From: Antitrichia curtipendula
Taxonomy: Eukaryota; Streptophyta; Bryopsida; Hypnales; Leucodontaceae
Length of the DNA: 64,000 bases
NCBI GenBank assembly: GCA_951230915.1
Contig: OX579633.1
Coordinates: 1,550,001 to 1,614,000 of the forward strand
Reading direction: 5' to 3'
Shown: positions 1 through 55,620 of the stretch, piece by piece
Layout: every line of letters starts with the position of its first letter
Position numbering within the stretch: position 1 is the stretch's first letter
Made by a program: the position numbers and the translations under genes
The notes under the pieces: generated by a model
Told to the model about the DNA's origin: nothing
Database searches by the model: none
Seen by the model: only the letters and a program-made list of their open reading frames with translations

Positions 1-1
1 G

Positions 2-2368
2 TTCAAGTGCCCAAAGATTGCTGAAATGATGACATTCCATGAAAACAATAAGTCGGAGGATGATTTCATGAGGTCAGTGGTAGATGGAGAGCAGTGGCAG
101 CACGTAGACCAAAAATACCCTGATTTTGCTTCAGTTCCTACAAATCTACGTATAGGTCTCATAGGGGATGGGGTGAACCCTTATGGTAACCAATCGACAA
201 AGCACTTTGTGTGGCCTTTTCTGATTGCCATTTATAATTTGCCTCCGTGGTTGACTAGCAAAACCTTTTTTTTAAAGCTGGTTCTTTTAATTCCCGGTCC
301 TAGAGCACCATCAGCGGATTGCATGGACATATATTTGGAACCCCTTGTAGAAGATTTATTGACATTGTGGGAGGGTGTTCCTGCTGTGGACATGTTCAAA
401 TGGATTGGTCGTCGATGTTTCAAGTTGAGGGCAATACTGATGTGGTTTGTTCACGACTTCCCTGCTTACGGTCTACTTTCCGGGCAACAAGTGAAAGGGT
501 ACAAAGGTTGTCCATTGTGTGGAGAAGATACATGTGCGGAGCATTCTTCCATTTTGAGGAAGATGGTTTATCTAGGTGCAAGGTGGTTTCTTGACGTGGA
601 CCATGTCTTTAGAAATGCAAGACGAGCTTTCAATGGCCAGACAGAGAGGGCTCCGACTCCCCAGCGTCAAACAGGCGACCAAATATATCGCAATGGTCTC
701 GAAAGAGAGAAATTTCTAAATGAAGGTGGACCAGAGGACTCAGAGGACGACCCGGTGAGGAAACATGGAGTGAAACGGCTGAGTATATTCTTCAAATTGC
801 CTTACTGGATGGTAAGTCATTGGCTACCTGTTCCGTAAAGTATGTGTAACATGAAATTGGTTGTCAGTAGTCCTTCAGTTCTACTGAAAACATTTTAAGA
901 ATATTTGATGTACATGCGAATAAGTGAATACGACGTTTCTGTGCAAATAACGGACACGCACATGTAATTTTCTTAAAGATTGAAACTATAAGTTGTTGTA
1001 TTTGTGTTCATTTGCCGTTAAGTGAAGTAGTTACCTTCAAAGAAACCAAAGAGATGAAGTTCTGGATAGAAGACTATAGCTTCGTAGACTGATTTTCTAA
1101 CATGAGAGGATTGAAAGTAACTTAGTAATGGAAAAGACATGCAGAAACGTCTTATAATAATGTCATACAATGTCCAGTCTTCAAAATGTTACCTCGGCAT
1201 TGGTCACAAACTTAGAAGGAAAGGAAGGAAAGCATGTGGGTATTCAGAAGTAAGTTACGAAGCAGACTATGTTTCTCAGGTCAGAGTGCTTTGTTGAAGA
1301 GCTTACAAGTTTGTATTCAAATTGGCAGTTGTTATATCTCTGTGCAAAAAAGAAGAATATGACATCAGTGGGTTTCTTCATTTTCTGGGGAGATAGGGAA
1401 AAGCCTTTTTGAATAGGGTTTCTGTTGAAAGAAGAAGCTTGCCGGCTGAATATTGTTTTTGTTGCTGTAGAGTCATCCTTGCAGGCACACCTTAGACGTC
1501 ATACACTGCGAGAAGAACATTTGCGAAACAATATTGAAGTACCTTTTGGGAGATAATGATACAACAACTGTCAAGCTGGACTTGCAAGACAGATGTGTAA
1601 GGGAGCACCTCTGGCTTCAAGAAACATCTCCGGGAAGCAATAAGTTTGTAATGCCACATGCGGAGTATGTTCTTTCCGACGCTGACAAGGCGGAGTTCAT
1701 GCAGACACTGAGAAATTTGAAGACACCAAGTTCATACGTATCCAATCTTCGTGAAAAAATTGAGAAGGGAAAACTTCGTGGACTGAAGTCATATGATTTT
1801 CATGTGATCATGCAACAAATTCTTCCGGTCTGTGTGCGGAACATTGAGAATCAGGAACTAGCTTCAGCGATCATCAGATTGAGCCAAGTTTTCCAAAGAG
1901 TTTGTGAGAAGACCGTTAGCAAGAACTCCAAGAATGGGTTGTTACGAGACGTAGCGGAGACCATGGTGTTACTGGAGAAACAACTGCCCCCCTCAGCGTT
2001 CACAATTATGATGCATTTGCCTTACCACATCGTACAAGAATTATACATCTGTGGTCCTGTTCAGAATTGTTGGATGTATCCGTATGAGCGTTACTATAAA
2101 GGACTCAAAATTTTGTGAGGAATCTTGCGAAACCCGAAGGCAGCATGACCGCAAGTTACGAGCTGGAAGAAGCTGCAGGATACGTGACGGAGTACATGTT
2201 GAATTACACGTCAACAAGTAGTAGGGTTTGGGATTCGCAAAAGGATCCCAGCATGGTAGATGAAGTCTTGGAGGGCCATGGAGTGACGAGGTCACTAACA
2301 GATGAAAGGCGGGACTTATTTCACAACTTTGTCATTAACACGTCCGGAGACTTGGAAGAGCATCAACA
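2..2368 (+). pseudogene. CACTA (En/Spm) transposase, tnp2 + DUF4218, broken, 5' end outside window
   Basis: This is the transposase of a CACTA-type DNA transposon, which would cut and reinsert the element. The frame is already open at base 2, so the gene starts upstream. The first exon (to 811) reads as tnp2: KYPDFASVPTNLRIGLIGDG, then the NPYG and GPRAPS blocks, ending SIFFKLPYWM before a GTAAGT donor. Exon 2 (from 1471, after TGTAG) resumes in phase 0 with HTLDVIHCEKNICETILK, the expected tnp2 continuation. DUF4218 follows (LPPSAFTIMMHLPYHIVQEL, then PYERYYKGLK). Near 2110 the frame breaks: one A appears lost from an A-run, and RNLAKPEGSM continues in another frame, with a donor GTAAGT at 2369. 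The frameshift makes it a pseudogene in this reading. tnp2 and DUF4218 assignments rest on recognised family motifs. Confidence 0.85.
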
Positions 2369-2778
2369 GTAAGTGATTGTTGAGTTCTCTTGAATTGTTT
2401 TTGTTTATCTTCGGTCCTTCAACTCCGGGTACAATTGGAAATAGGAACCCAATTATCAAAATCTCTAGTGCAGTTCATAGATCAGTTGAAGTAGAAAACC
2501 ACAGTTGACTGAAATGCACAGTAATTTTATCGAATTAGACACTATTGTTTCTCTTGAATTTGCAGAGAACTGATGGACTTCAATTTCGAATGATCAAATG
2601 TCACGTTTGACTTTGTCAGAAGAACGTAGAAGTGGACGGAAATGTTGAACAACACGTTAGTATTCGAAGAATACAACGGTCAATATCAGTGTTGTACATG
2701 TAATGAACGCGAAGACTGTAACTGTGAAAGACCTGTTTCAATTGAAAAGAACACACTGGAGTACATGGAAAAAGTCCA

Positions 2779-3363
2779 GTGGGTAGGAATGGAGAAGTCG
2801 AAGGTACTGAACAAAATGCATTTCCATTGTGTAGACGTTATGAGGAGGCGAAGGCAGATGTCATGGAGCACAGGAGAGTTTGGCGTCGTAGACATCCACA
2901 CAGGAGCGGAAGAAGAGGACTTGCTTTTCCTGAAAATTTATCAAAAGTTCCTGAGTTCCCGAAATGGTTGGAAGATGATGTAAAATGTGCAGAGGAGGGT
3001 GGATTGCAAGTTCCAGACACTGTGAAAGATATATCTATTCCACCGCAATATAATTGCAAGAAGTTTAAAAGTATATGGGCATTCGGTTGCCATTATCGAG
3101 TGGCAAGTTGTGAGAGGACTTTACGAACTCAAGACTCAGGAGTGGCCGCTACTTTTACAAGACCGTGGCGATCTAGCGCAATAGATCAAAATTTTGTGGA
3201 AGCAGACATCGAATATATAGGTGAATTGGAAGAAATTGTGGAGTTGGACTACCGACGGACTTGTGTTGTTGTTTTCGTCTGTAGGTGGATAAGAGCGCAC
3301 TATAGAGGAGCCAATGCAAGTGTTCGAAGAGACAAGTGGGGATTCACCCTCGCGAATTTCTGA
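2779..3363 (+). pseudogene. DUF4216-like segment of the same CACTA transposase
   Basis: An open frame whose second half resembles the DUF4216 region that normally follows DUF4218 in CACTA transposases. Visible pieces are FKSIWAFGCHYRVASCERTL, RTQDSGVAA, YIGELEEIVELDY and VVVFVCRWIRAHYRG...DKWGFTLANF, in the expected order. The link from the DUF4218 exon passes through several stops between 2566 and 2780, so no intact coding path is visible. It supports a decayed autonomous element rather than an active one. The first roughly 30 codons of the frame are doubtful, since an overlapping frame at 2642-2983 is also open. Confidence 0.7.
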
Positions 3364-3489
3364 ACTTGTTAGGGGTTCAGTAAAGAGTCTTTTGCTTTTC
3401 TAAAGCATTGCCAACAAATTTTTTTCAGTGACGCCTCAGAGTGCTCTGGCTGGAGAGTCGTCCTCTGACGTGATGTTCGAGGCAGACGA

Positions 3490-3708
3490 GTGCAGAATGC
3501 AAGTGAGGAACCCGAGAATTCCCAAATTTTTCAAAGAGGATATGACAATGACTACGAAGGCCTTCGTTCTCCAGAAATGATTTTGGAAGAGGCTCCTCCT
3601 TGTTCAGTTGTAGGAAGAGAGGTAGAGGGAGAAGATATACGGCAAGAAAGAGTGCAAGAAGAAGAGTTATTTGACCGGGATGTGGGAGACTCGTCGGACT
3701 CGAATTGA
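3490..3708 (+). CDS. Possible acidic C-terminal exon of the CACTA transposase
   Basis: A short acidic reading frame with many Glu and Asp residues (GREVEGEDIRQERVQEEELF, ending DVGDSSDSN and a stop). Tnp2-type proteins often end in an acidic, low-complexity tail after DUF4216, and the frame lies at the right distance after a gap at 3364-3430 that ends in a T-rich, acceptor-like stretch. There is no domain to confirm it, and it could be chance. Confidence 0.3.
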   Translation: MQNASEEPENSQIFQRGYDNDYEGLRSPEMILEEAPPCSVVGREVEGEDIRQERVQEEELFDRDVGDSSDSN

Positions 3709-3710
3709 AT

Positions 3711-6610
3711 GCGGAGTTACAGGTATTCATGAGTTTCAATCTTTTCAATGAACAGTAAGGTTTACAGAAATGTTCTTAGTTTTTCCGACATTCTAGATCT
3801 GTGGAATTGATGACGTTCAAAGGAAGATAACTACGTAGCAAATTTCGAGCACTGGAAGTTGCAGTTCTGCAATCCAACATTCATGTCACTACGAAGCAAG
3901 TAAATTCTTTACTCATCGTCAATGAGCAGTGAACAGTTTGGTAGGTACATTTCTTCTTTACTAGGGTCAGTAGTGAATTCTCAGCTTCAATGAATGACAA
4001 CTGAATATGTGAGTAGTCATGAATTTCTACGGCAGAGTACAAGAAAGGAATTGGACAAACAGGTGATGAAAATGACTGCTTCCATATAGGACAATAATTA
4101 CTAGTTTTAGTAGATAGCTTTGTTTTTCACAGCGATTTCTGATACACTATGGAATGTTCTCTCTAAGGTTCAAATAAGCAGTACAGCAAGGTATGCGAGG
4201 AGGCGTTCCGAATAAAAAACTGTGAGGAAGTGCGAAGGACTCCGTGGGTAGTCGAGCTGAAACCTTGTTTATGGTGATTAACTTTCCAGTGTTTCTGAAT
4301 GTGTAGGCATTTGTGGAAGAGCATTTCAGGTCGTGTGATGGATTTGTCATGTACAACTTCTGAAGAAGTAAGTGAGCAATACGGTTGACGTCAGGAGGCA
4401 TTTGATTTACATTTTATCTGGGATTCTAGGGTAATTAGTGCATGTTTGGAAGCTTCATTTGTAGGATTGTCGGACTGAAGCTTCTATTTCTGAAAGTCTC
4501 GAACATGTGGATTTGTGGACATGTACATGCTAGAAATTATGTGTGTTATCACTTGTGAGTGCAGTGATGGAAGGCGGCGTGCAATGCAAACATAGAGCAT
4601 GGGAAAGTGAAGACGCATGAAAGGTGAGTCACATTTGTGAAAGATCATGCAGCTATGTCACTATGTGGCTTTTGGTAAGATGAAAAAGTTGTTTGTTGAA
4701 TGATTTGTGAGTGCATTGTGCTTGTGGAATCTTGCATTACTGGGATGGGCCCTTATTCAAGAAACGGTGATTATATTGGGAATTAAACATTTGGAAGGCA
4801 TGATTGACTGCAATGTTCAGAGAATTAATTAAGTTGTTGAGAAATATAGGTATGTCCTTGTCGATAATTGACAAACTTGAAATTGTAATTTGAAGAGGGT
4901 ATAGAACTTTCGGAGAGAAGCACTTCTTGTAACTGAAGTGAAATTCAGTTTGTTTTGAAGTCAAGAATTCGAAGTTGTTTTCAAAGTTTTTTATAGATGT
5001 GAACAAAATTTTGTTACACAGTCAGTGAATGACACTGTGGACATGTTGTGCGGAGGAAGAGCGAGCTGAATAGAAGAAGACAATAATAATGAAGAAGGCG
5101 AACAGGTTTTTCAGTATAGATAATATGATACAGTGCAAAGTCACTTGTTCAGTGTAGACACCAGAAGAGAGAGCGAGGCTTGTTGAAGGAATGTGAATTA
5201 TTGAGAATTTGAAATACAAAGTATGACAGCGTTCAATATTTGGTTACTAGAAATATACAGAAGAGTGTCAAATTATTTTTGTAAGTATAAACATGCGAAG
5301 ACTTTGTGTGCAATACTTACAGAACAACAGAAAGCATCGTGCGAACTGTTTGTGTAGTATGCACTTAGCAGCAAACCAAAAATCCAGGATTTTTAAAACA
5401 TATGTGGCACATGCTTTCTAATTTCGTAGATTGGGTTTGGATGTCGGATATGTTTTGTGATGTGCAGGGTTCCGGTGCATTCAGAACTTGGGGCAGTAGG
5501 TGAGGAAGCTCAACTCATGTACACGATGTAGGACAACTGCGAAGGCTAGCAGAGGGATTTCGAAAATTTCCACGAAGGAAGCTCCATCGTCACGGTATTT
5601 TCACAGTAAGTATGTAGTGTTTATGAGAAATACAACAGGACTCCGTGTACAGAATAGATGGACTTGTCATGCTTCATCCGGAAGACTTCCATGTTCCCGT
5701 GATCTACGAAGTATCTTCTGGAATCTACTAAAAAGGTATCGCATTATATAAAAATCCAAGAGGCCTTCTTTCAAATTCGTGCACAGAAGTTTGGTTCTTT
5801 GGTTTTAACTTCGTTGTTTTATGTATGTTCAGCAAATGTTATACAAGTACAGTGCTATGCATGTAGGAATATGAAATTCTGTGCAATGTTGAACGTATGG
5901 AACATGTGCAGCGCTTGTTATTGTAACAAATGTAGACGAAAACAGTGATTGCAGTTCAAGAGTCTGGAATGTAGATGAGGACATGTGCGCAGCAATAGAA
6001 ATTAATCAGTGGAGCAAGTGGTTCTGAGTAGAGATTTTAAGCTGCAACTGCAGGCGACCAAGTGTAGACATTTGAATGTCAATAAAATTTAGAATGCAAT
6101 GATACAGAAAAAAAATTGATCCAAGTTCGGTGTACATTTCATGCAAAATATTTTTTAATCGTACAATACAATCCTAATTGCCATATACATACATTCACTG
6201 CCTGGTATTTTGAGACTTTTATATGAAATCAAAGTGCACGTACGTGATGTTGTATAATTTGTTTGATATAATGTTCAAAAACAAACTGTATTGTCAGTTT
6301 CATCTTTCATTTACTCCTGATGCATTTTCACATGAAAAGATAAAGAAAATGATGTAATGATAAACCAACAGGAAACCAATCAGTAAGCCTCGTTACCTTA
6401 GAACCAAAATGAAATATGTTGGTTCATACTTAGGAAAATAAATTTTCCTACAGAAATTCATTTTTCTCTTGGTCCCAACACATTTCTCTTACTTCTGTCT
6501 TGGTCATAGCCATCTCTCCCGTAGTGAGAGATCCAGATGACAAAATAAAAGTAGTTCCACAAATGTAAATGTCTGTCACAATAAAATATGAAACAAATAT
6601 CACTAAGGTA
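3711..6610. other. AT-rich stretch without a supportable gene
   Basis: About 2.9 kb with only short scattered open frames (for example 4147-4401 minus and 5500-5751 plus) that show no recognisable domain. It may include the 3' non-coding and subterminal part of the CACTA element to the left, but no right terminal inverted repeat could be located. Confidence 0.5.
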
Positions 6611-6613
6611 GGA

Positions 6614-7174
6614 CATCTGGATCAATCCAGATGATGCTCCCATAGTAGGACACCTTGAGAATAGCATCCAGAATACAACACAGCGTACTTCAGTAGCGCG
6701 GAATGATAGCAAATTAGTCCATGTACTCATCTGAAAATTACGAGATACATTCCAAGCCATCTGGAGTGATCCAGATGGTAGTCCCAGGATATGAAACGGC
6801 TAGTGAATCACATACTACATTCGTAGTGTGGAATGACAGTGATTAGTCCATTCACTGAAATTCTTGGTCATCTGGAGTGATCCAGATGATAGACTCACAA
6901 TCAGAAGTAACGAGTAACTTCAGTATTACCCAGTGGCGTGGAATAATAGCGATCACATAACTTACCAATATCGACATCCGGGAATGGCAAGTTGCGTCCC
7001 CTCTCATCTGGAGTGATCCAGATGGTAGTCTCAGGATTAGGAGTACCGAATGATTACTGCCACCGTTCATAAACAATTCCACAATCTGAAGAAATATTAA
7101 TTGTCTCATAGAAACGCACGCAGTGAGGCATGCCAAAGGCATACTTCATTCAGTCATCTGGAGTGGTCCAGATG
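6614..7174. repeat. Array of five 20-bp palindromes in degenerate tandem units
   Basis: Five near-identical palindromes occur at 6614-6633, 6758-6777, 6869-6888, 7005-7024 and 7155-7174. The consensus is CATCTGGAGTGATCCAGATG, with arms CATCTGG/CCAGATG and a 6-base centre. Variants are ATCAAT in the first centre and AGTGGT in the last. Spacings are 144, 111, 136 and 150 bases. Material between them also repeats loosely: a GTGGAATGAYAG-like block followed by GATTAGTCC recurs between palindromes. The array lies just upstream of the ParB-like/HAD gene. It could be a transposon subterminal region, a protein-binding array or a promoter; the sequence alone does not decide. Confidence 0.9.
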
Positions 7175-7248
7175 ACTAAGGTGTGAAAAGAATCTGATGG
7201 ACCACGGTACAAATAAGTGAACTAACCGGCATTGTTGAATTGATGCAG

Positions 7249-10200
7249 TGATGAGTTCCTTCAAGAGGGTCCAGACGACGCCTGCCCAGTGAAACTTGCT
7301 CCCTACTGTGACGGGTGGATTCATACATTCTGTTATGTCGGAAAATTACACCCCGCAGCAGTCTATAGGTGCTTGAAAAAGGTCACGGAATGGGGGGTTC
7401 AGTGGAAGCAGGAAGCAGATGGCCGCGTGCGGATCGTTCCGAAACTCATGAATGATATGAAAGTGCACCGTGACAGTGGTCTTGAAATTCAAGAAATGTA
7501 GGGACTTGACAATGACACCGTGCTCTTGGTCATTGAGGAGAAAGTTCCGGGATCGGGTGGAACGAAAATATACGGGTTAATCCTAGATTATAGTATGATG
7601 GAGCTAAGTCATTGCGAATCACTGCTGTCACAAGCATTACTGGATACCAAAGACGACATCCCGAAGTGGACACCCAAAGAAATGGAAGTCCAGTGGGGGC
7701 TCATTGTAGAGGCTCGCGATGATACAAATCCCTCACAAGCTATAGTACCGGTGACAGCTGCAACACCGTCGCCAAAGAAGAAGGGAAAGAAGCGGGCATC
7801 ACTTGTTGGAGCGCCAGGAGACAAAACTGCTTCCGACGCTGCTGCTAGTAAACTTACAATTTCCGCGTGTGTTGCAATGAAGGAAGCTGAGATTAAGAAG
7901 CTTGACAACAAGCAAATGAAGGTGATGAAGGCATTGTACAAGACTCACTTCGACTGCATGTACAAATGGAAGAAACAACCATTCGTCAACGCCGCTGGTG
8001 AAACCCTCCGAGTACATTTTGACTACCTGCACAAAGGTCCACCAGGTTTCCTAGTGTATCGTGGCATTGAAGACACTCGATTGCCTGGAATTATAAACAA
8101 GGCGCGCTTGGAAACCAATTTCGATGCAGATTGGAGGGTCATCACAGTCCTTCCCATAAAGTTAGGATCGTACGGTGCAGAAGGGAAGGCAAGCTACTTT
8201 GACACCCGCCCGAAGGTTGATTCCATTACGAGCAATACCAACTACTATATTATTGGGGGCCAACACACTGTGGAGGCATATAGGACTCTGGTGTTGCAAG
8301 GAGAATTTTCCGAGGCTGATGTCAAGGACGCGTCGTGCTTCAAAATCATTCCAATATTTGCTACAAGAAGCAAATTCTCGGACATCATACACCTCTCCCG
8401 AGCTCTTAATCAGAATGTCGCCGGAGAACAGAAGGAGCAGTCATTCACGAAGCAACTTCAAATTGCCAGAGTCAAATGGAAGGAGATGGGAAGTCCTCAG
8501 CCCGCGTACGGTGGCCGAGCGCACACCCCTGCTTATCTGGTATGTTTCAAAGTTAATTTTGAATTGTGGTCTACCGATTTTCATGGTGGACTGTAATTCA
8601 TACTGCAACCATCTGGATCATTCCAAATGGTCATGTTTAACACTCCAATGTTGCTGCTGACATGAGTGTTGGAAATCATCCTCTTGATCGCACAGAGTAA
8701 GACATTTGGTGTTAGACTATAGGGATTGTCGTATTCAATCACTTCATTTGGATCACTCCAGATGGTTTTGTGGGTTGTTGCTAATGCCGTTCGGATGTTC
8801 ATTTCTGACGCAAGTAGAAGTCGTTCTTCTCGCAAGAGTTCTTCCCACTCATTTCAACCATCTTCACCTCCATGAAAAGGACCGAATCCGCAGAATCGAA
8901 AACCCCGTTGTTATTTATGGAGGATGACGCCGACATAAACAAGTGGATACAGATTGAAGCGGACTACTTGCAATACAAGCTCCCCGGTAATGAGGACAAA
9001 CTACCCGATCCTTCGAAGGGATCGCGGAAGCCATTGAGTCTCCATGATTTCAAGACTCTTTATGGGCTTCGGAAAGAAGACATCAATTTCCTGGCGGATC
9101 AGGTGCAAGCACAAGAGATTTGTGTGAAGAGCTCGAAGGCTAAGCGAAGAGGCATGGCCCCTTCATTGCCGACTCTTGCGGAGGCCGGCTCTAGAGAGAG
9201 GTATATCCGCATCATGAAGAATGAAATGATGTCCCACTACCGGAAAGTCCATCTTCCCAGTAAGAAGCCAGAGTATTATCAATACCCAGAAGCTGAATGG
9301 GAGAATTTAGCCACGGAGAAGAAAGTTGGCCGTGCAAAATTACAACTGTGGGTTGATAGAGCTTTGGCATCGGAGATCGGAAAGATTTGGCTCAACGGTT
9401 GATTGAAGGGTTTGAACAAGACATGTGACCCTTCCGACTGTCCGAAATCTGTGATAGAAATGTGGGAAGAATTCATTAAGGCACGAGCCCAAGTTGCGGT
9501 GGCAGAGGCGATGGAGAAGGGATTTGCTGAGAAGTACCTGTCGAAGATCATGGACGTGAACATGTGGAATATAAGCGGAATTCTTATGCAACCAGATGTT
9601 ATAGCTTGGCGTGGCGAGGGTAAAAGGCACTTGTATTTGTGGTATATGTTCAAAGCCACGAATACCGGACCACGGGCCAAGATTTTGGAGGACCGTAATC
9701 TACGTCAACTGTTTGATGCCCTCGAATGCCAAGAGAAGAAGGTCACTTCAGTTCGATCCCCTACCGTTATCATGACAGACGCGCAGGGTTTCCACGAGGT
9801 TGTGGCTCACCTGTACAAAAGAAAGTTGGAGTTAGCACATCAACTTTGGGACTGGCATGTTGTTCACTATATTGCGGGCCCAAAAGATGGCTTTCCCGAA
9901 ACTGCGACTAGAAGCGGGTTTGTGGTGTTCGTGATTTTCTGCTTTGGGTACAATGAAGCAAAGAGCGCTCGGAGCCGATTCAATTACTACTTCCCCTCTC
10001 AGCAAGCGTTCGAAGCTGTGTACAGGTCAAAAGATATTCCAGAGGATGTTAGCTCATATAAGCGTCGTGGTGTACCATATCTGAGGGCGAACTTTGCACT
10101 TGTGTTATTTGGAGGGTTAATGCGGGATGACATGGTGCTTGTCAACGTGAACGGGGGTGCTGAGATTACCCACCTGGGACTGGTAGGGACAATCAAAAAC

Positions 10201-12618
10201 TTACTTGTTCTTGTTTTAAGTACAATTTCTTGCCTTGACGTATAATAGCTAATGATTTTCTTTGTGAACCAGTGGGGCGGTGTGAAGGTGCTGGAGGTGT
10301 TCAATTCTGCGGTGGCGGAGAACGCTGGGCAAATTACTGCAAAACACATTGCGGACCAATTCACCGTCAATGTCCACCTTCAACCCCCGGTCGATAATGA
10401 GGATTTGCCGACGGATGCCACTGAATCCCCAGAGAATTTCGAGCTGAACTACTCTGACGCGACCGACGACGAGCCTCGACAACTTATAGAACCTGAGGCG
10501 AGTACCCCATTACCTATATTCATCTGGAGTGATCCAGATGATATTCTATAGATTGCTGTTGTTTGTCCCCAATCTTATGTGGTATTCATTGTTACTGCAG
10601 GTGACTTCTTCCCCACCCCCTGTGCGGCCTAAGAAGTTGAAGAATCCAACTCCGCCAGAAAGAAACCTCGTAGAACCTCCAATGCCTGCAGTCCGGACAG
10701 TGGGGACGAGCAAGCAAAGGAAGAGGAGAATTTTGGAGTTGGATGTGGACCCTCCCTTAGTTTCAAATCGTAAGAAGGCGACTAAACCGAAGAAGAATCC
10801 TATTACTCCAGCGCATCAGGTGAAGCAGAATTTGGCTGCAGTGTTTATGGAATCGGAGCACACAGCAACGACGCCTAATGTGTCTTCACGGACTACGGAG
10901 GAATTTGACATGCTGGATGCCGAGGGCAATGCGGTTGAGGAGGAAAGAGACGCAGTTTCTGCTTTGCTTCATTGTGCATCGGGTGTACAGGGTGGTGACA
11001 CCTCTAGATCTTTAGTGCTCAATTCTAAGGATCCGGCAGTCTGTGCTGGGGATGACCCTAGCTCCGCTTCTCTACGTAATGATGGAGTTGTCCCTAGTGC
11101 ATCTGAAGCACCCCACATGAATCCATCTTCAGTTGGTGCTCAGGAGATGTCTGACACTATTCGGAATGATACTCTAGGGGACTTGTGCCCATTGAGTCCT
11201 CCTTCTAACCGCCCTAACAAGGCAGACGTTACCGGAAAGGTTAGTTTTAGGTTCTAGGCTTAGGATCGTCTGTCATTTTTATATATGATTGAAGTCGGCA
11301 GTGACCTCTGGATTTGTAATATCACGCTGTATTCATTGCGACATTTCAAATTCCCTCTCCGTTTCATTTGTCTTTTGAGTGATTCCCTTTTTGCTACTTG
11401 TTTCACAGGATGCTCCATTTGGAGTGATCGACAACTCTTGTATTGAAGTGTTGAAAGTTTCGCCTCCCGACCTGAACAACAGGAGTGAGGTCGGGGGTGA
11501 GAAGTCGGAGGGCGTGGAGGTAGCGGAGGGCGTGTTTGAGGAGGAGGAAGACAATGTGGCAGCGGACTCTGCAATTTTGGTGCCCGCGGAAGTATGGGCT
11601 GGTTTGGTGGAAGAGGAGACGGCTGCTGTGGTGGAGGTGGAAAAGGAGGAGATGAAGGAGGACAAGGAGCCTGCTGTCGTGGAGGAGAAGGAGGCTACTG
11701 TCGTGGCGGAGAATGAAGAGGAGGACAAGGAGGATGCTGTGGTGAATATGGAGGTTGCTTTAGTGGAGGAGGAGGAGAAGGAGGCTGTTTCAGTGGAGGG
11801 GATGTTGGTCGATGTGGGGGTGAAGAAGGGGTCTGATTCCGGCGTCGCGAAAGGTGCTTGAGGTGACCATTTCTAAGTGTTTTACGTACTGTGTAGTACT
11901 TCGGGTTAATTAACTCCTGTATTTTGCCTCTAACTAAGTTTTCTCTTTGTTGTCTACAGATCCGGCCCCGACTGCTTTGATAAAGGCGACCATATCGTGC
12001 AAGGTACCTAGAAGGCAATACGTTGTGGTCCTGGACCTAAACGGACTTCTTATTCACCGTAGTCATCACAATAGTAAGGCAGGCTTCATACGGAGACCGG
12101 GTCTCACACTTTTCCTTGACTGGCTCTATTCTAAGGCAAGCATAGTATTTTGGAGCAGTATGACCGAGAAGAACATGTGGCCCTTGTTGGGGAAGGTGTT
12201 GTCGTCTACTACCTTTGGTCCTACAAGAGTGACTTTTATTTCGCAGTTTTCTTGCACTCCGTCATCGTTTAGAGACCCAGACGAACCAAATAAGCCAATC
12301 TTTCTGAAGGACTTGACAACTTTGGTTGAAATGGGTGAAGTAAAGTCTGTACAAGATGTCCTCTTGGTTGATGACAGTCCAGTTAAAAACCTATTGAACG
12401 ATGTTAACAGCGCGGTTCATCCGACAACCTGGTCTGGTCATGTCGGCGACAACTTCTTGCCTGCAACGCTGTGGCCATGGCTTGACGGTCTTTTTCTGTC
12501 CAACGAAGCTGTGCCGGTTTATGTCAAGGCCAACCCACTTCTCGGTTGTCAGAACCCGGTAGATCAGTTGGACAGTCTAGGAATTAACATTTTGAAGGGT
12601 GTCATTCTTAAGACTTAG
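7249..12618 (+). CDS. Large six-exon gene: ParB-like segment, unknown middle, C-terminal FCP1-like HAD phosphatase domain; two in-frame stops
   Basis: Proposed exons are 7249-8539, 8818-10182, 10273-10497, 10601-11239, 11409-11853 and 11960-12618, about 1,540 codons. All five internal junctions keep frame (phases 0,0,0,0,1). Four introns are GT-AG and the third appears GC-AG (GAG|GCGAGT). The start is uncertain: 7249 follows an acceptor-like GCAG, so an upstream exon may be missing. Exon 1 has a ParB/sulfiredoxin-like patch, NYYIIGGQHTVEAY, then LSRALNQN about 50 residues on. Exon 2 has no clear family; VLVNVNGGAEITHLGL joined to WGGVKVLEVF faintly recalls a methyltransferase nucleotide-binding motif. 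Exons 3-5 are basic, proline-rich, then strongly acidic. Exon 6 is HAD/FCP1-like: VVVLDLNGLL, FWSSMTEKN and VLLVDDSPVKN. DLNG in place of DxDG is also found in plant relatives. Stops TAG 7499 and TGA 9400 interrupt exons 1 and 2, so the copy may be dead or use readthrough. Confidence 0.6.
8540..8817 (+). other. Predicted intron 1 carrying two palindrome copies
   Basis: The donor is CTG|GTATGT and the acceptor GCAAGTAG|AAG, both phase 0. Two palindromes of the upstream family lie inside it at 8610-8629 (CATCTGGATCATTCCAAATG) and 8745-8764 (CATTTGGATCACTCCAGATG). Both are in the reverse-complement sense of the consensus and 135 bases apart, like the spacing in the upstream array. Confidence 0.6.
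10498..10600 (+). other. Predicted GC-AG intron 3 carrying a palindrome
   Basis: A 103-base intron with donor GAG|GCGAGT and acceptor TGCAG|GTG, phase 0 on both sides. A perfect consensus palindrome is at 10521-10540. Without splicing, the frame ends at 10551 and the continuing frame (from 10601) is not joined. Confidence 0.55.
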
Positions 12619-12636
12619 TTTTGTTAGGGTGCCGTT

Positions 12637-12656
12637 CATCTGGATCACTCCAGATG
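12637..12656. repeat. Palindrome copy just after the stop codon
   Basis: CATCTGGATCACTCCAGATG is the reverse complement of the consensus, 18 bases after the TAG of the HAD domain exon and before a poly(A) signal (AATAAA at 12758). Confidence 0.9.
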
Positions 12657-12757
12657 CTGTATTTTGAGGCCTTCACCTTGGACACAATACATTATCTGTT
12701 GTTGATATTACTGAGTGCAACAAGTATGATATTTTTTATCATTCTGTATGTTCTTTA

Positions 12758-12763
12758 AATAAA
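12758..12763 (+). promoter_or_regulatory. Candidate poly(A) signal of the ParB-like/HAD gene
   Basis: AATAAA, 140 bases after the stop codon at 12616-12618, in a T-rich context typical of a plant 3' end. Confidence 0.45.
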
Positions 12764-13149
12764 CTTTTTCTTAAATCGTCTCTTAAAAATTTTATACTCT
12801 GAGATGACGGCGGTATTGTGGTATTTCTGTCTATAATTTTATTTATTTGGCAATGGAGGTGCATGTTGCTCAATTGCACGGGTAGATGTAGGCGTATTAG
12901 ATAAGTCCAGTGATTAATTTAATCTATAATATCCTGAATTAATATCCTTCTTTGGACATTTTACAACACCGCACACTTCTGTCAATATTTGAATTACAAT
13001 AGTAATGGAATTGGATTGGTGATGTGCTCTCTTAGCTGGGAATTAAAAGTGATGGTATTATGCTTTATAATGAGAAATACTCAATTTCTGGGTAAGTGTC
13101 ATCTTCTCTTTGCGACGCACCCTTCTGATCAATTCCATTTGGTAATCCA

Positions 13150-13169
13150 CATCTGGAGGACTCCAGCTG
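13150..13169. repeat. Degenerate palindrome copy before the second HAD fragment
   Basis: CATCTGGAGGACTCCAGCTG keeps the two arms with one changed base in the right arm. It is the rightmost member of the family that I can find. Confidence 0.8.
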
Positions 13170-13242
13170 ATTGGACGTAAGCATCTTGTTGCTTGGAGGT
13201 CTTTCGTTTGCACTAACTGTGGTTGGACGTGGGTCTTCGCAG

Positions 13243-13665
13243 AGGGTGGTGATCTTGGTAATGACAGGTCTTATATGCGTTGAAGGTGTTGTCACGGATG
13301 TTCGACAAAACAAAAACCTTGAGGCCTTCCGGGATTTTGTTGGTTGTATTGTGTCAAAGACTTCCGTTGGTCTCTGGTCAAACATGACCACTTCAAAATT
13401 GGAGGAGGTCCTTCCTCATATACTTCCAAAGGATTTTATTAAGCTGCTATTTTTTATTAAAGGATGTGATGTACCGTGAGACTCGGACAAATACCCCAAT
13501 AGAAGCGATCTCTTCACGTATCTCTTTAGTAAGACTGCAATGCGCAATTTGCTTAGAAATCGCACCCTTGTATTCATTGATGTGGATCCCCTAAACCAAA
13601 AGCAGAATTCTATAATACCCCCGCTTGTACAGATTAGTGATACCCGACCAGCAGATTTGAAGTAG
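13243..13665 (+). pseudogene. Second, degenerate FCP1-like HAD fragment
   Basis: After an acceptor-like TCTTCGCAG the frame reads RVVILVMTGLICVEGVVTDV, which lines up with VVVLDLNGLL of the neighbouring gene. Then come VGLWSNMTTSKLEEVLPHIL (matching FWSSMTEKN), an in-frame TGA at 13477, and SKTAMRNLLRNRTLVFIDVDP (matching VLLVDDSP). The first catalytic Asp is replaced (VMTG), so it should be catalytically dead. It ends with TAG at 13663, and AATAAA lies at 13731. It looks like a tandem copy of the last exon that has decayed, or the remains of a second element. Confidence 0.6.
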
Positions 13666-13859
13666 ACAACCTTAGGAAGTGCTTTCTTTGTTTCCAATGG
13701 CACATGCCTACTCTTTCATGTATGTAAATGAATAAATGGTCCTGACCCCACCTTTCTTTATTACACAACCATTGTGTATGTATTTGTGTGATTTTGAAGG
13801 GATTACATCACAAGGTCTCTAGATATCCAATTCCCAAGTTCCCTATTGGAATTGTCAAA

Positions 13860-14480
13860 TGAATGTATGATATTGAGTGGATGATATCAGAAGCTCTTTA
13901 GATCTCCAAGTTCCAAGTTTAGTGTTGGAATTGTCAAATGAATGTGTGTTATTGAGGGGATGATATCAAAAGCTCTCCAGATGTCCAAGTTCCAAGTTTA
14001 GTGTTGGAATTGTCAAATGAATGTGTGTTATTGAGGGGATGATATCAAAAGCTCTCCAGATGTCCAAGTTCCAAGTTTACTGTTGGAATTGTCAAATGAA
14101 TGTGTGATATTGAGGGGATGATATCAGAAGCTCTCCAGATGTCCAAGTTTCAAGTTTACTGTTGGAATTGTCAAATGAATGTGTGATATTGAGGGGATGA
14201 TATCAGAAGCTCTCCAGATGTCCAAGTTCCAAGTTCAGTGTTGGAATTGTCAAATGAATGTGTGATATTGAGGGGATGATATCAGAAGCTCTCCAGATGT
14301 CCAAGTTTAGTGTTGGAATTGTCAAATGAATGTATAATGTTAAAGGGATGACATGAGAAGGTCTCCAGGTCTTCAATTTCCAAGTTCAATGTTGTGATTT
14401 TCAATATGTAATGTGGAGGGGAACACATTTGAACATCTCAAAATCTCCAAGTTCCAAGTTCAATGTTGGAAATGTCAATT
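13860..14480. repeat. 79-bp tandem repeat (minisatellite)
   Basis: About seven to eight copies of a 79-base unit that contains GGAATTGTCAAATGAATGTG, GATGATATCAGAAGCTC and CCAGATGTCCAAGTTCCAAG. The GTCCAAG landmark falls at 13983, 14062, 14141, 14220 and 14299, an exact 79-base period. Outer copies are more diverged, and traces reach to about 13800 and 14520. The unit is not coding. Confidence 0.9.
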
Positions 14481-15252
14481 TCTAATTTTAATGGGATGCC
14501 ATCAGATGATCTTGAAATCTTCAATGTTGGAGTTCCTCCGTTTTGTGAAGCATTTAGAGGACTTAGCCAATCATGTAGAGATGTAAGAATATGAAATCTC
14601 ATTGCTTACACAAAATTCAAGACTTCTTCTACAATCATCAAGAAATTTCCAGATGATTATGCTAACTTTATACAAGTAAACATTACCCTCATGTTTCATT
14701 GCTCAAATATGTTTGTGAAGGAGCTTTCCATGATAGGTAGATACGGTCTATGAAATATTTTCCTTCATACTTTCATTGTCATTGCAATGTGATCTCACTC
14801 AATGGAGGTAGTACTCATCTGGAGAGATTTCCCAAAAAAGTCCAAAAATCCCCTCAAAGTCCAAATATAGTTAAATGTGGCATATTTCAAATAATCAAAT
14901 ACTTATATTTAATAGATTTCATTGGTTAAATGATACCTTAAAATTTCACAGATTTAAAAAAATAATTGATTTTAAATATTTTTTGATTTTCAAAGATTGT
15001 AGAAATCTATACTTTATAGAAATCTATAAATTGTAAAACTCTTATAATTCTATCAACAAAATTCATTGCATAAGACTACAACAACTTACAAGTCCTATAT
15101 GTCCAACCTAATAGTATTTTTACAATTGATATGGGACAATTGATATAAGACAAATGAAAATGAACTTTGGAAGCAACTAAGAAACAACTAGAAACCCACT
15201 AAGAAACAACTAATGTATGACTTAAGAGTGACTAGGAAACAATTAGCTTCAT

Positions 15253-15408
15253 TACTAGAAAATCCAATTTTTTTGTTGATTTGGTCCCATTCATTTGGTT
15301 CACTTTTCTATTGATTTCTATCCAAATCAACAAATTACTCTCCAAATCAATAGAAAAGTAAATCAAATCTATGCAACCAAATCAATAGAAAAGCTGAATT
15401 TTCTAATA
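15253..15408. mobile_element. Foldback MITE, 156 bp
   Basis: The two halves are inverted copies of each other over about 70 bases. The left end is TACTAGAAAATCC and the right end, reversed, is TATTAGAAAATTC. Both arms contain TTTTCTATTGATTT. No clear target duplication is seen. Confidence 0.65.
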
Positions 15409-15801
15409 CTATAGGAAACAACTAAGAAACAACTAGTATACTACTAGAAAGCAACTATAGTCATTTTACAGTTGCAATCTTTTCCTAGTTGTTTTCTAGA
15501 AGTTTTTTGTCACAACACGGAAACCTAATTTCCGTATAGATAGAGTAGAATAGATGGAATAGATAGAGATTTTTAAATTTTTTCGGTTAAGAAATAATAG
15601 ATGTCTTCCGGAAAAGCTTACGTTTGGAATAAGCTTTCATCCGGAAATTAGTTTCCGATCCGACCAGATTAGGGTTTCTGGAAATGGACCGGAACGCCGC
15701 CACCTATGGACTAGGGATCCGGCCTACGAGGCTAGGGGACGCACCTCGGGAACGAAAACCTAATCCAGTTCCAATCTGAGAACTCGTGGCGCTGTTTTGG
15801 C

Positions 15802-15810
15802 TATTTAAAG
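15802..15810 (+). promoter_or_regulatory. TATA-like box for the gene at 15,952
   Basis: TATTTAAAG, 142 bases before the ATG, in a GC-richer block followed by a C- and CT-rich stretch (leader). It fits a plant core promoter. Confidence 0.5.
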
Positions 15811-15951
15811 ACCACCACCCGCCTTTCTCTCTCCATCTTTTGAGTTTCCAAACTCGTCCGCGCGTAGCTAATTGAGAGAAAGTCTGGTGAGAGTTCGATT
15901 ACGGATAGAGAGAGGTGAAGCCGGATTAGGGTTTTCTTTGTCGGTGTAGCG

Positions 15952-17900
15952 ATGGCGGAAACTAGTGCGGCGCGATCCGCAAAATCGTCGGTGGTTGCCC
16001 GGATGGTGAGTCCGTCCATACCGACAGACCCCACCGCTCGGCAAGAGTTGGAGCAGGATCTCCAGAGATTAGGGTGTGCCGGATTGATCGACCGGCCGTG
16101 GAATTTGAGAGGGGAAGAGTTGATTCAGGAATTGATCAACGAGACTTCGAACCAATACGAGCTGACGGTGCGAGGGCAGCCCAAGGGGTGGACGGAGGAC
16201 GTGTGGGCGGAAGTCTACTCTTTCCGGAAGTTCAGAGACGGATTCGCCTCGCGAGCAGATAAGTACGCGACCGGGAAGTTCCGAAACCCTCCTCACGCGA
16301 AGGAAGGGTATGCGATTAGCGACTGCGTGGACGAGCGCCACAAGAGGGTGTTAAATTTCCTCATCCCGATACTGTATCTGGAAAAACCTACCCGGGTTAC
16401 GATTATGATGGCCAACACGATTTTCGGAGCGATGGAGGAGAGAGTGGTGCACTGGGGACGTATCATAGCACAGGTGGTGTCAAAACTCGCTGACCACGTA
16501 TCCAAAAGCCGGTACAGCCCAATCAGCCCCTACCTTTTCCACATCTACCACCACGGTGACGTATTGACGACGGATGAGATGTTGGTGTACAACACCGGGT
16601 TGGAATTGCTCAAATATGACCTTACGGATGAGCTGGAGAAGGACGAGCCGATGGAGGCGGAGGAAGACGATCTGGAAGAGGAAGCCTTGGAGCGGAAGAA
16701 GCCCAGGCGGAAGTCGACGGATCCGGGTTCACGGGGGAAGCAACCTGAGACAGAACCACGGGAACAAGCCCAGTTCCGGAAGAGGAGAAGCCACCTTTAA
16801 GGGAGTTCTTCGACATCGGGTTTGACTAGATGCATCAGGCCCGGAACCTACACCACAAGGCCATCCAGTTCATGGAAGAGGTGGCGACGGAACTGAACGT
16901 GCTACTCGCGGAGATCATCGAAGAAATTCGGCGGAGGCCGAATCCGGAAGTCATCCGTCAGAAGAACAAGCAGATCCGGGTCCTGGAGAGAAGCCGGGAG
17001 GAGGCAGAAAGCCGGAGGAACTGGGCACAAGGAGAATGCGAGGCGGCACAGAAAAATGAGAAAGATGCCATGCAAATGGTCCGGAACCTCCAAGCCCTGA
17101 TCGAACAACCGGCAGAGGTTGTGAACAAGGCAAGACTCTACGACGCCCAATTGGTAGCAGGGGGACACGTGGCCGGATCCAAGATCGTAATGATCCTTAT
17201 GGATTTCGAGGCCCGGATGCAGAGGGTACTTCAAGAAATGCAGACTCTAGTGGCTCGAGTCGATCCGGATAGGGCAATGGACTTCTCGACCTTTCCGGAA
17301 GCGAATCTCACCACCAACCCGTATCTCCAAACTCCGCCGAAACCAGTTGTGGGGATTCCGGTACTGTCGAAACCAGGAAGACTACAGTCTCTCCTGAAGC
17401 CATTTGTGCAGCGCGAATGGCTGGCTCAAAGGACATACTCTCCAGGACAGAGTCAGAGGGAGGGGCAGAGCATTCCGGAACAAGGCGGAACTTCCACGCC
17501 GGATCAAACTCAGACACCGGAAGAGGGGACGCAGATCCGGGGTAATCTGCTCAACCGGATTGGAGCAGTGGAGAATCCGGCCAAGTCGCATCCGGCTGAC
17601 TTCGTCTATATGCGGGAGGAAACACCAGTGAAGCCATCGTCCGCGGAGGCTATCAACGAGCCGATCAACTTGGATTCACCAATCCGGGAGATGGAGATTC
17701 TCGAATCTGAAAAGGAGGACTTCGAGACGGAATCCGCAACAGAGACGGATGAGGAAGAAGACTCACCGCCGAAGAAGCGGAAGATCCAGACGCGAGCAGC
17801 CGGAAAGCTAACACCGCTGCCGAAGACCAGGGCGAGGACATCATTGGTGCAGTCGGGGAGCAGCTCGAAGAAGCCGAAGAAAGTAGGGTTTAGAAGTTAG
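15952..17900 (+). pseudogene. Unknown transposon-type protein gene, split by one frameshift and one stop
   Basis: The first frame (15952-16800, 282 codons) starts MAETSAARSAKSSVVARMVS. It has no named family that I can confirm, but PYLFHIYHHGDVLTTDEMLV within a helical context recalls plant transposon-associated proteins. The second frame (16830-17900, 356 codons) starts MHQARNLHHKAIQFMEEVAT. It is coiled-coil rich (RQKNKQIRVLERSREEAESR), then proline- and acid-rich, and ends in a basic tail (PPKKRKIQTR). Between them the alternative frame reads EEEKPPLREFFDIGFD, then TAG, then MHQARN. One indel near 16,770 plus one stop therefore separate what was probably a single protein of about 640 aa. 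Codons are CCGGA-rich, unlike the AT-rich neighbours. A gag-like protein of a retroelement is possible, but no protease, reverse transcriptase or clear LTR is visible. Confidence 0.55.
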
Positions 17901-18870: not shown

Positions 18871-21054
18871 ATTCAAATTCATAGCAACATAGTAGAGTCC
18901 CTGGGACGATTCTCCGTGTCATCTAACCACAATTGTGTGTTAAAGGTGCTTACTTCTAGATTACGCGTACGACATTTTTTGCAACTATAGATTGACTGCT
19001 TTGCAACTAAAACAATGTATGAACAACGGCATAAAACAATTACAATAGATTTGGTGCTAATAGAAAGGATTATAGTTGCAAGATAGTTGTATAGGACACT
19101 AGTTGCATAATAGTCGATTATGTTTTTCTTTTAGTGTATATCATCATCCTGAACAAATTAGCGCTATTTGGCAGAATTTTGATAGTATTTGACTTCATTT
19201 TCCTGTCCTTGCATGTAGGGAAGGAGCTCATTTCATCAGGACCAAGACCCAACCCCCTCCTAGCTCTTTTTTATAGTTTTGCATTGTCTTTTCTTTCGTC
19301 TATGCTCATTTCTCTTTATTGTTCAACCTTTGATTTGGCTATTTTGTATGGGTTATCTTTAATGGAATGGTTATTCCATTTGTTCAATAAATAAATAAAT
19401 AAATAAATCTCATTTATTGAATTTTTTTGTCATCGATTGATGCAAGACTTTAATGGGTCATTTCCTAAGTGTCTATTATAGGTGGTTTGCTTATCATAGG
19501 TTAGTTTATCTTATATGACCCTCATTTGAATTTGAGATTTATCAAATTTAGATTTCTAAAGAAACATATTCCAATTTCAAGGTAGGTGAATATTACCATG
19601 CCTACAAGAATATAATTTTCATATTGTTTGATCTTAAAATTATGAAATACAAAATTTAGTTAGTATTTCACAACGGCAGATTTTAACTCCTAAAGGACCA
19701 GAGGTGTTTTTCAAGAAAAATTATGAAAAATATCATTTTTTAGTGCATTGTCTAAAATTAAAAATAAAAACCTTTTTTTTAACTTCAACCTTTCAAAAAT
19801 TTAATAGACTACTATGAAAATGAGTTGGAAAAAATTAAAACCCATTGATTCTATGGATTAACATTTGAAGTGAGGATTTTTTTTTTCATTCCTTTAAAAT
19901 TATATTAGCAAAGTTTAGGCCTTTTTGTGAGAGTGAAATTTTTTTTATTGATGAATTTGAGTACCTCAACCATTGAATTCTAATTTTGATTAGTACACTT
20001 ATGAAAAATTTGAAAAACAAATATAGAGTCTAGCTTATTCTAAACTTTCCTATAATGCAAGGAAGTTAAATGAGTTGGCAATAAACTTATCATTTTTTAA
20101 CTTATAATTTTATTACAATCATTACTTTCAATAAACCGCATTACTTTGATTTTGGTTTTATGAAATTCATTAATATTTAAAAAACCAATATTATAATGTG
20201 ATGAACATTTGCAATATTATAATGCGATGAAGTCCAAAGTGGGTACACCCTAAATCGAACCTTATCTAAAACCACTATCATCACTTTGTATTTATCTCCA
20301 AAACCAATACATACCTCAATGCCACATTTAACTACTTTGGGACTATTGAGTGAATTCTAAACAAAATATTTGGAAATCTCTAGATAATAACATCTAGAGA
20401 TTTCTAGATGTTTGTATATATCTTTGGATGTTTTGTATTGATCTCCCAATGTTTTGTATTGATCTCCCAATGTTTTGCATACATCTCATGATGTTTTGCA
20501 TTATCTCCAAATGACCATTTTTTTTTCTATTAAAAATTTTCAACCCTTTGAAAGTCCAAAAGTAGTTAACCTTTAAAAAAAATGGACTTGTGTCCATGGA
20601 AATCATCCCTTTGATCACCATGTGAATCATTCCCTTTAAAAATCGCAAAAGCACTTATTAGAAGTCAAACTACTATAGAAGACCTCCCCTTTTCACAACA
20701 CATTCTACTACAAGGATATTTTTTCATCCATCGAATGCCAAATGTCCTTGTTGACATTTAAGGGTTAAATGCAGCATCTATATGAAAAAAACAATTCTCG
20801 AAGATTTAATAAAAACTTTGACGTTTCATAACTTTTACATGTAGTACCCAAATATTGCATTCTTTTGCATTTAACCTTCTTCCATTTGCCATCAAGAAAG
20901 TATGAAATTTGGCCAGTCCCATAATACTAACGGTGCCTTTTGGGTGCTTCTAATTGAAGAGAAAGGAATTGCCTCCATGGCCCCAAGAGACTTGCACAAA
21001 GTAACTAAAACAAAAAGGAATATTCACAAAGCAACTACCAAATTAGGGCACACA
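18871..21054. other. AT-rich spacer with simple repeats
   Basis: No supportable gene. It contains an (AAAT)n run at 19385-19408. A left end of the TTAA family (TTAACTCCTAAAGGACC) is at 19683. A 20-base palindrome CATCTAGAGATTTCTAGATG lies at 20391-20410. Four to five loose copies of a roughly 21-base unit (CCCAATGTTTTGTATTGATC) lie at 20425-20512. Confidence 0.6.
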
Positions 21055-21164: not shown

Positions 21165-21423
21165 TCCAGGCCTGAGGAGGTTCTGTCCTCGCTCCATCAC
21201 ATCCTTCGATTCCTAAAATCGACACTGTTGTTCTGATTTTGGCCTAGTCTTTGTGGAGCCACACGTCCACTCAGAGGGTCCAACCGCTACCTTCAGGTCT
21301 GTCAATTTGAACGCTTGTTGCGTGATTGTGGGTTTGGAAGTTGCGGAGAATTCAGCACGACAGTTGTGGAATTGGTGAGGGCGGAAATTTGAGCTCGAGA
21401 GTGATTGAATTTGGTCGGTGAGG

Positions 21424-55361: not shown

Positions 55362-55620
55362 CCTCACCGACCGCACTCAATCAATCTCGAGCTCAAAACT
55401 TTCCCCCCCCCCCCCAACAATCCAACGTCGTGCTGAATTCTCCGCAACTTCCAAACCCTCAATCACGCAAGAAGCGTTCAATTGACAGACCTGAAGGTAG
55501 CGGCTGGACCCTCTGAGTGGCGGTGTGGCTCCACAAAGACTAGGCCAAATCAGCGCAACAGTGCACTTGCAGTAATCAAAGGAAGTGATGGAACGAGGAC
55601 AAACCCTCCCAAGGACTGGA

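Follow-up and report, generated by a model that had tools for sequence, protein, structure and literature searches.

The DNA analysed here, called the window throughout, is a stretch of 64,000 nucleotides of the moss Antitrichia curtipendula (G000:C1:1550001-1614000, in a genome of 400 Mb and 303 contigs). It contains the right half of a copy that belongs to a multicopy, cut-and-paste DNA transposon with terminal inverted repeats (TIRs). The element carries a gene for a DUF7869 protein and an accessory gene, whose product combines a ParB-like domain with a HAD domain of the NIF type, and about 20 copies of a 20-bp palindrome, in clusters upstream of each gene and within the accessory gene. The reading that we favour, as moderately probable, is that of a Sola-like TIR transposon with a probable DUF7869 transposase, a ParB-like accessory gene, and palindromes that would be the sites of the accessory protein.

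In order to find ends and target duplications, an earlier note on this DNA had proposed the alignment of several loci, and both were identified in this way. Five further copies of the same subfamily are 93-97% identical to the window at the DNA level, all from position 6526 rightward, and extend further left than the window copy. In the six right ends compared, the window included, the last shared base corresponds to window 14883 by inspection (BLAST alignments end between 14883 and 14887); the elements close with ...GTGGCAT or ...GTAGCAT, and dissimilar flanks follow. The inverted form of this right end is present at the far left of copy A1 (C5:19787148-19806736), a complete copy of 19,589 bp. 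Element copies span 19.5-31 kb, with ATGCCACATTTAACTA... TIRs, and in A1 and five other complete copies each end carries the repeat ATGCCACATTTAACTANNTTTGGACTTTG, mismatched at one position at most. Genome-wide, ATGCCACATTTAACTANNTTTGGACTTTG was found with up to three mismatches at 826 forward and 858 reverse positions, against 0 for the control; 64 matches are exact. Target site duplications (TSDs) of 4 bp were observed in all six copies for which both ends were read:

C5:1170541-1190053: TATA
C5:3096202-3127200: AATT
C7:20448686-20468639: CCTA
C5:19787148-19806736 (A1): ATAA
C1:34764160-34785707: AAAA(A), which may be read as 5 bp
C7:7594851-7616921: AATG

The termini at C5:34692614 and C5:34705754 were considered as the ends of one further copy and dropped, as they face away from each other. 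Two subfamilies are distinguished, A (the window type) and B, which are 67-79% identical in DNA where they can be aligned. A 73-bp satellite lies between the two genes, and takes up a few hundred bases in A1 and about 12 kb in the copy at C5:3.10M.

The 4-bp TSD by which the Sola superfamily is defined in the accessible text of PMC10741241 is present in the element. The superfamily is probably Sola. The interpretation given in the earlier note is supported in part.

The ends of the window copy are marked by the following features:

1 to 6526, plus strand: right part of a nested EnSpm/CACTA-like element, with its TAGTG end at 6522-6526 and DUF4218 in the open reading frame at 1471-2115
6527 to 6539, no strand: remnant (right part) of a palindrome which is whole, as CATCTGGAGAGATCCAGATG, at A1 11316, and is broken here by the nested CACTA-like element
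14855 to 14883, minus strand: right TIR, with the shared last base at 14883
14884 to 14887, no strand: ATTT, right-hand 4-bp TSD, with its left counterpart beside the left end at G000:C1:1493479

A single complete element starting at 6526 was rejected for the window copy: the CACTA-like terminus sits inside one of the palindromes, with TAGTG abutting AGA within it. The candidate left half is located at C1:1493479-1501665, where the first 8.2 kb match A1 1-8074 at 96.5-97.9% identity; homology to A1 ends at A1 8074. Its left end lies 63 kb to the left of window 6526 and is preceded by ATTT, the same four bases as in the right flank of the window copy. Since ATTT flanks both ends, a single element that later insertions have split is the most likely reading of the window copy. 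The left end of the CACTA-like element was not found in the stretches examined, so that A1 8075-11322 is unaccounted for in the window copy, and more than one insertion may have occurred.

Copy A1 contains two divergent coding regions. The first, from A1 485 to about 4009 on the minus strand, encodes a DUF7869 protein (E 1.6e-38), for which 247 matches were obtained, 120 of them listed. When the A1 exon was aligned with 30 relatives, the motifs IHDKMD, LQLDN..KDNKN and GHTHEDID were found to be kept. These acidic motifs would fit a DDD/E transposase, and the DUF7869 protein is a probable transposase candidate. Fold searches with its low-confidence model were uninformative, and a literature search on DUF7869 found no paper.

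The second coding region, the accessory gene, occupies A1 12298-17394 on the plus strand, opposite to the DUF7869 gene. The earlier note had described the window counterpart as a large spliced gene, joining a ParB/sulfiredoxin-like patch, a long unrecognised region and an FCP1-like HAD domain. The observation is confirmed by the analysis; the splicing model, with six plus-strand exons and introns in consistent phase, is plausible from the sequence, its third intron needing a GC donor. The parts of the gene in the window are:

7244 to 7501, plus strand: region resembling the N-terminus of some relatives, closing with an in-frame TAG
7502 to 8539, plus strand: exon 1, predicted ParB/sulfiredoxin-fold domain at residues ~155-301 of a product of 346 amino acids
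8818 to 10182, plus strand: exon 2, conserved region of 455 amino acids with no fold identified; TGA at 9400-9402 in the window copy
10273 to 10497, plus strand: exon 3, with the proposed GC donor
10601 to 11239, plus strand: exon 4, fast-evolving linker, 42% identical in amino acids to two subfamily B copies
11409 to 11853, plus strand: exon 5, linker of acidic repeats
11960 to 12618, plus strand: exon 6, HAD domain of the NIF/FCP1 type (Pfam PF03031)
13171 to 13662, plus strand: possible second NIF-like relic, weak (BLASTP E 0.015 to the first domain when the A1 copy is used); the window pieces have no Pfam match

The window copy has in-frame stops at 9400-9402 (TGA, exon 2) and at 7499-7501 (TAG), and is therefore probably non-functional in its present state; A1 shares the TAG and has an open exon 2.

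Exons 1, 2 and 4 match no Pfam family above its cut-off. By structure comparison, the predicted model of the exon 1 domain shows the ParB/sulfiredoxin (Srx) fold, of the nucleoside triphosphate (NTP)-binding type, the same as in KorB and Noc. Relatives of exons 1 and 2 were found 24 times in public contigs, at 37-75% identity to the copies analysed; for exon 2, 11 relatives were obtained. Three of the 24 lie on contigs equal in size (68570, 222426 and 103639) to contigs of the 120 listed DUF7869 relatives, which suggests, without proving it, a linkage of the two genes in further elements as well.

No prokaryotic source of exon 1 was confirmed in genome contigs. The large size and a prokaryote-like domain might point to a Polinton-like element or a large endogenous DNA virus, an origin to which hardly any probability can be given: pattern scans of 2.9 million viral contigs produced no confirmed relative of exon 1 or DUF7869, and short TIRs, 4-bp TSDs and hundreds of termini suit a TIR transposon.

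For exon 2, the long unrecognised region, no fold was identified in Pfam and PDB searches with 12 members. ASH2L-like_WH, a family of winged helices, is weakly matched by two of the 12 (best E 0.006) and would offer a lead to DNA binding. By eye, MTDAQGF and VNVNGGAE stand at the positions of the beta-class DNA methyltransferase motifs IV and I, and exons 2 and 3 could accordingly encode a diverged methyltransferase, within a ParB-methyltransferase-phosphatase protein that marks its own element. Such marking has been proposed for Sola1-1_Ec32 of Ectocarpus, described in the accessible text of PMC12477816 as a giant Sola-1 transposon of 21.5 kb, with a transposase and, on the opposite strand, a ParB-like gene with a DNA methyltransferase; the place and orientation of the accessory gene match those of that gene. 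We consider this distinctly unlikely, as none of the 12 members matches a DNA methyltransferase Pfam family at E 10, no PDB methyltransferase was retrieved at E 10, and the expected catalytic residues are missing. When the thin 12-sequence exon 2 profile was compared by hhalign with 21 YhdJ-like enzymes, of which one was E. coli yhdJ and the others came from 20 of 50 viral-contig loci, the probability was 0.1%.

Exon 6 matches Pfam NIF (PF03031) with E 1.5e-12 and 47.9 bits, the cut-off being 21.8, over profile positions 1-152 of 160; with the NCBIfam dullard-like model it scores 21.7 bits, under the cut-off of 139.15. The motif LVDDSP is present. The exon encodes a member of the NIF domain family, for which phosphatase activity is doubtful, for the reason given below.

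The window was scanned on both strands with CATCTGGAGTGATCCAGATG, allowing up to three mismatches. The scan gave 11 rows, corresponding to 10 places, all within 6614-13169, and zero matches in the rest of the 64 kb; in 100 dinucleotide shuffles, mean and maximum were 0. The ten copies reported earlier, their coordinates, and their restriction to the surroundings and interior of one gene are all reproduced, the last for the 64 kb of the window. The sites, to which no strand is assigned, and a nearby tandem array are listed below, with rows that rest on the scan alone marked as such:

6614 to 6633: palindrome of 20 bp, first complete one of the upstream cluster (scan)
6758 to 6777: palindrome, exact (scan)
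6869 to 6888: palindrome, exact (scan)
7005 to 7024: palindrome, exact (scan)
7155 to 7174: palindrome, 1 mismatch (scan)
8610 to 8629: palindrome in intron 1, 2 mismatches; subfamily B has an aligned site
8745 to 8764: palindrome in intron 1, 1 mismatch; the subfamily B site is aligned, though weaker
10521 to 10540: palindrome, exact, in the gap between exons 3 and 4
11100 to 11119: degenerate palindrome in exon 4; the A1 equivalent (15896) is a 1-mismatch dyad, and two subfamily B copies are perfect
12637 to 12656: palindrome, exact, 3' of the gene (scan)
13150 to 13169: palindrome, 3 mismatches (scan)
13785 to 14415, plus strand: tandem array of eight 79-bp copies close to the right end, with a CTCCAGATG half-site in most units

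A genome-wide search for the palindrome had also been proposed, to see whether it always clusters with this gene. With up to two mismatches, it occurs 280 times in forward and 301 times in reverse orientation, where the reversed control gave 0. Exact sites number 54 and form 22 clusters; for 18 of these, one of the 64 exact terminal repeats is no more than 25 kb away (about 0.8% expected per cluster). The palindrome therefore belongs with the element family and is not a general genomic motif. The clusters without an exact terminal repeat in this range are at C1:45.48M, C5:27.60M, C5:29.52M and C8:5.10M, the first of them having a one-mismatch TIR at C1:45468825.

In A1, dyads of the form CATCTGGA-N4-TCCAGATG, with no more than one mismatch in 16, were found at 19 places. 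Among them, an array with 28-bp spacing is immediately 5' of the open reading frame at which the DUF7869 gene is taken to start, and a cluster lies 0.35-0.98 kb upstream of the exon 1 reading frame. Intron 1 holds two, exon 4 and the interval between exons 3 and 4 hold one each, and two more follow on the 3' side of the gene. The same groups are seen in subfamily B with up to three mismatches, in a comparison of three copies up to exon 4, which two of them reach: the 28-bp array, in which each site has 2-3 mismatches; a cluster at 0.34-1.17 kb upstream of exon 1; two or more sites in intron 1; and single sites ahead of exon 4 and within it. The exon 4 site is kept in spite of a protein identity of 42%. 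In intron 1 of one A and one B copy, the sites are identical at 34 of 40 positions and the remainder at 109 of 230, a result reached by 5 of 20000 random window pairs. The palindromes are conserved in place between the two subfamilies.

The accessory gene itself is under purifying selection between A and B. The ratio of nonsynonymous to synonymous substitution rates (dN/dS) is 0.11-0.13 for exon 1 (four B copies), 0.12 for exon 2 (four), 0.26 for the NIF domain (one), and 0.05-0.09 for the DUF7869 exon (four pieces of three B copies, two pieces being from one copy). Codons bearing stops were excluded. In two frameshifted copies, overlapping pieces caused a few codons to be counted double, giving totals of 349 and 362 where the exon has 346. 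Inside subfamily A, dN/dS is higher, 0.30-1.01, as expected of decaying copies. The dS values between A and B are 1.2-1.5 for accessory exons 1 and 2 and 0.51-0.60 for the DUF7869 exon; the two halves therefore seem to differ in history, and the sequences suggest that they may have been exchanged between subfamilies.

These data bear on the view that the accessory gene is passively captured cargo, and the palindromes functionless inherited repeats. Stops and frameshifts such as the window TGA at 9400 and the frameshifted A1 NIF exon speak for it, and according to the accessible text of PMC12477816, giant elements whose transposase genes have decayed are believed to be mobilised in trans. It has little probability, given the low dN/dS of exons 1 and 2 at dS above 1, sites better conserved than the rest of intron 1, and the 24 relatives in public contigs.

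Palindromes might alternatively be bound by a host factor or by the DUF7869 transposase, like the subterminal repeats of CACTA and hAT elements, with the ParB-like protein doing another job, for instance as a nucleotide-switch enzyme. Half-sites close to each end, with CATCTGGAG at window 14816, CTCCAGATG in most of the 79-bp units and the dyad at A1 385, leave scope for a terminal role or for transposase binding, and both genes travel with the palindromes. The best full dyads, however, are not at the ends, being found 0.3-1 kb upstream of the accessory gene and in its intron and exon 4, and ParB-family proteins have palindromic targets. We take this alternative to be unlikely.

Under the favoured reading, we think that the accessory protein may bind the palindromes, and may control both promoters or the nucleoprotein state of the element. 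Autoregulation and transposase control, as by KorB, are suggested by the placing of such sites before both genes and by their tie to a ParB-fold protein that moves with them. The protein would bind as ParB does at parS, or KorB at its operators, and form a nucleoprotein complex, with which it would regulate its own gene and either repress or time that of the transposase. Alternatively, a spread complex of the ParB/parS kind could help to keep so long an element together while it transposes. As for the HAD domain, its targets might be partners bound to chromatin, for instance the tail of RNA polymerase II, or it might be only a binding module. A more complete picture, offered tentatively as a possibility of rather low probability, is that of a plant transposon with its own ParB/parS-like switch, in which an NTP-dependent clamp would load at the palindromes, spread, and control the divergent promoters or bridge the ends of the 20-30 kb element, while the tethered FCP1-like domain would act on RNA polymerase II or chromatin. 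As clusters of the palindrome are conserved at equivalent positions in two subfamilies that have diverged, the idea of a ParB-like protein binding its own transposon becomes directly testable.

Several observations weigh against the favoured reading. The exon 1 model is modest (mean predicted local distance difference test score, pLDDT, of 58.6; structural Z below 8), Foldseek alone gave zero matches with it at E 0.001, and the sequence match to the ParB family is weak (DUF6551, E 0.011, in two of 14 exon 1 members). Apart from the weak ASH2L-like_WH matches, no DNA-binding domain was established in the accessory protein. The usual HAD nucleophile motif is DxDx(T/V); motif I reads DLNGL instead in the window and in a subfamily B copy (L010), which makes catalysis by the NIF domain doubtful. 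Many of the accessory-gene copies read have stops or frameshifts, the A1 NIF exon being one of the frameshifted ones. The predicted DUF7869 structure has a strand-helix order as for an RNase H fold at a pLDDT of only 45, so that the RNase H/transposase assignment is one that we infer. Half-sites near both ends are equally compatible with binding by the transposase.

Further features were noted in the window. At 20319-20347, another sequence resembles the TIR in diverged form (ATGCCACATTTAACTACTTTGGGACT...); it may be the end of a non-autonomous relative that is old or short. Two long open frames of 293 and 356 amino acids at 15919-17900 (plus strand) may be part of a retroelement; the former has no Pfam match at E 0.01. 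A DEAD-box helicase gene is present in two inverted copies, very similar by eye, at 21409-23745 (plus strand; DEAD, Helicase_C and GUCT domains) and 53026-55376 (minus strand), about 30 kb apart.

A literature search, with most subscription papers outside its coverage, found neither a ParB-like/NIF fusion nor a palindrome array in such elements. The HAD domain resembles the NIF/FCP1 HAD phosphatases (PF03031) in its near full length and in LVDDSP, and differs from them in DLNGL at motif I and in being encoded by a transposon. The exon 1 domain is predicted to share its fold with KorB, of plasmid RK2, and Noc. KorB operators are clustered palindromic sites near promoters, which the palindrome clusters of the window, also near promoters, resemble. 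Unlike KorB and Noc, the accessory protein is eukaryotic and transposon-borne, with no established helix-turn-helix or dimerisation domain, and it has GGQHTVEA where proteins of the KorB/Noc type have an arginine-bearing box. A survey of ParB-CTPase folds describes, in its accessible text, mobile elements that carry ParB-like folds in fusion with lineage-specific domains, and DUF6551 fusions binding cytidine or adenosine triphosphate (PMC12704722); the accessory protein is likewise a ParB-like fold on a mobile element, fused to another domain. The words 'transpos', 'plant' and 'phosphatase' have 0 occurrences in the accessible main text of that survey.

Sola elements have 4-bp TSDs, TIRs and sizes that may be above 15 kb, and are present, Sola1 included, in the moss Physcomitrella (PMC10741241, PMC9033089, accessible text). 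The element described here is like them in TSDs, TIRs and large size, and carries a ParB-like/NIF gene, of which there is no mention for Sola in the same text. ParB-like accessory genes on giant transposons have already been noted in the accessible part of PMC12477816, and, going by that text, the closest precedent is Sola1-1_Ec32. Both elements are about 20 kb long, with a transposase or transposase candidate and a ParB-like gene on the opposite strand. Here a palindromic site array is present, none being mentioned for Sola1-1_Ec32 in that part of the source, no methyltransferase was detected, and a C-terminal FCP1/NIF HAD domain is found instead. This suggests that the partner domain of transposon ParB-like proteins can be of the FCP1/NIF type in place of a methyltransferase.

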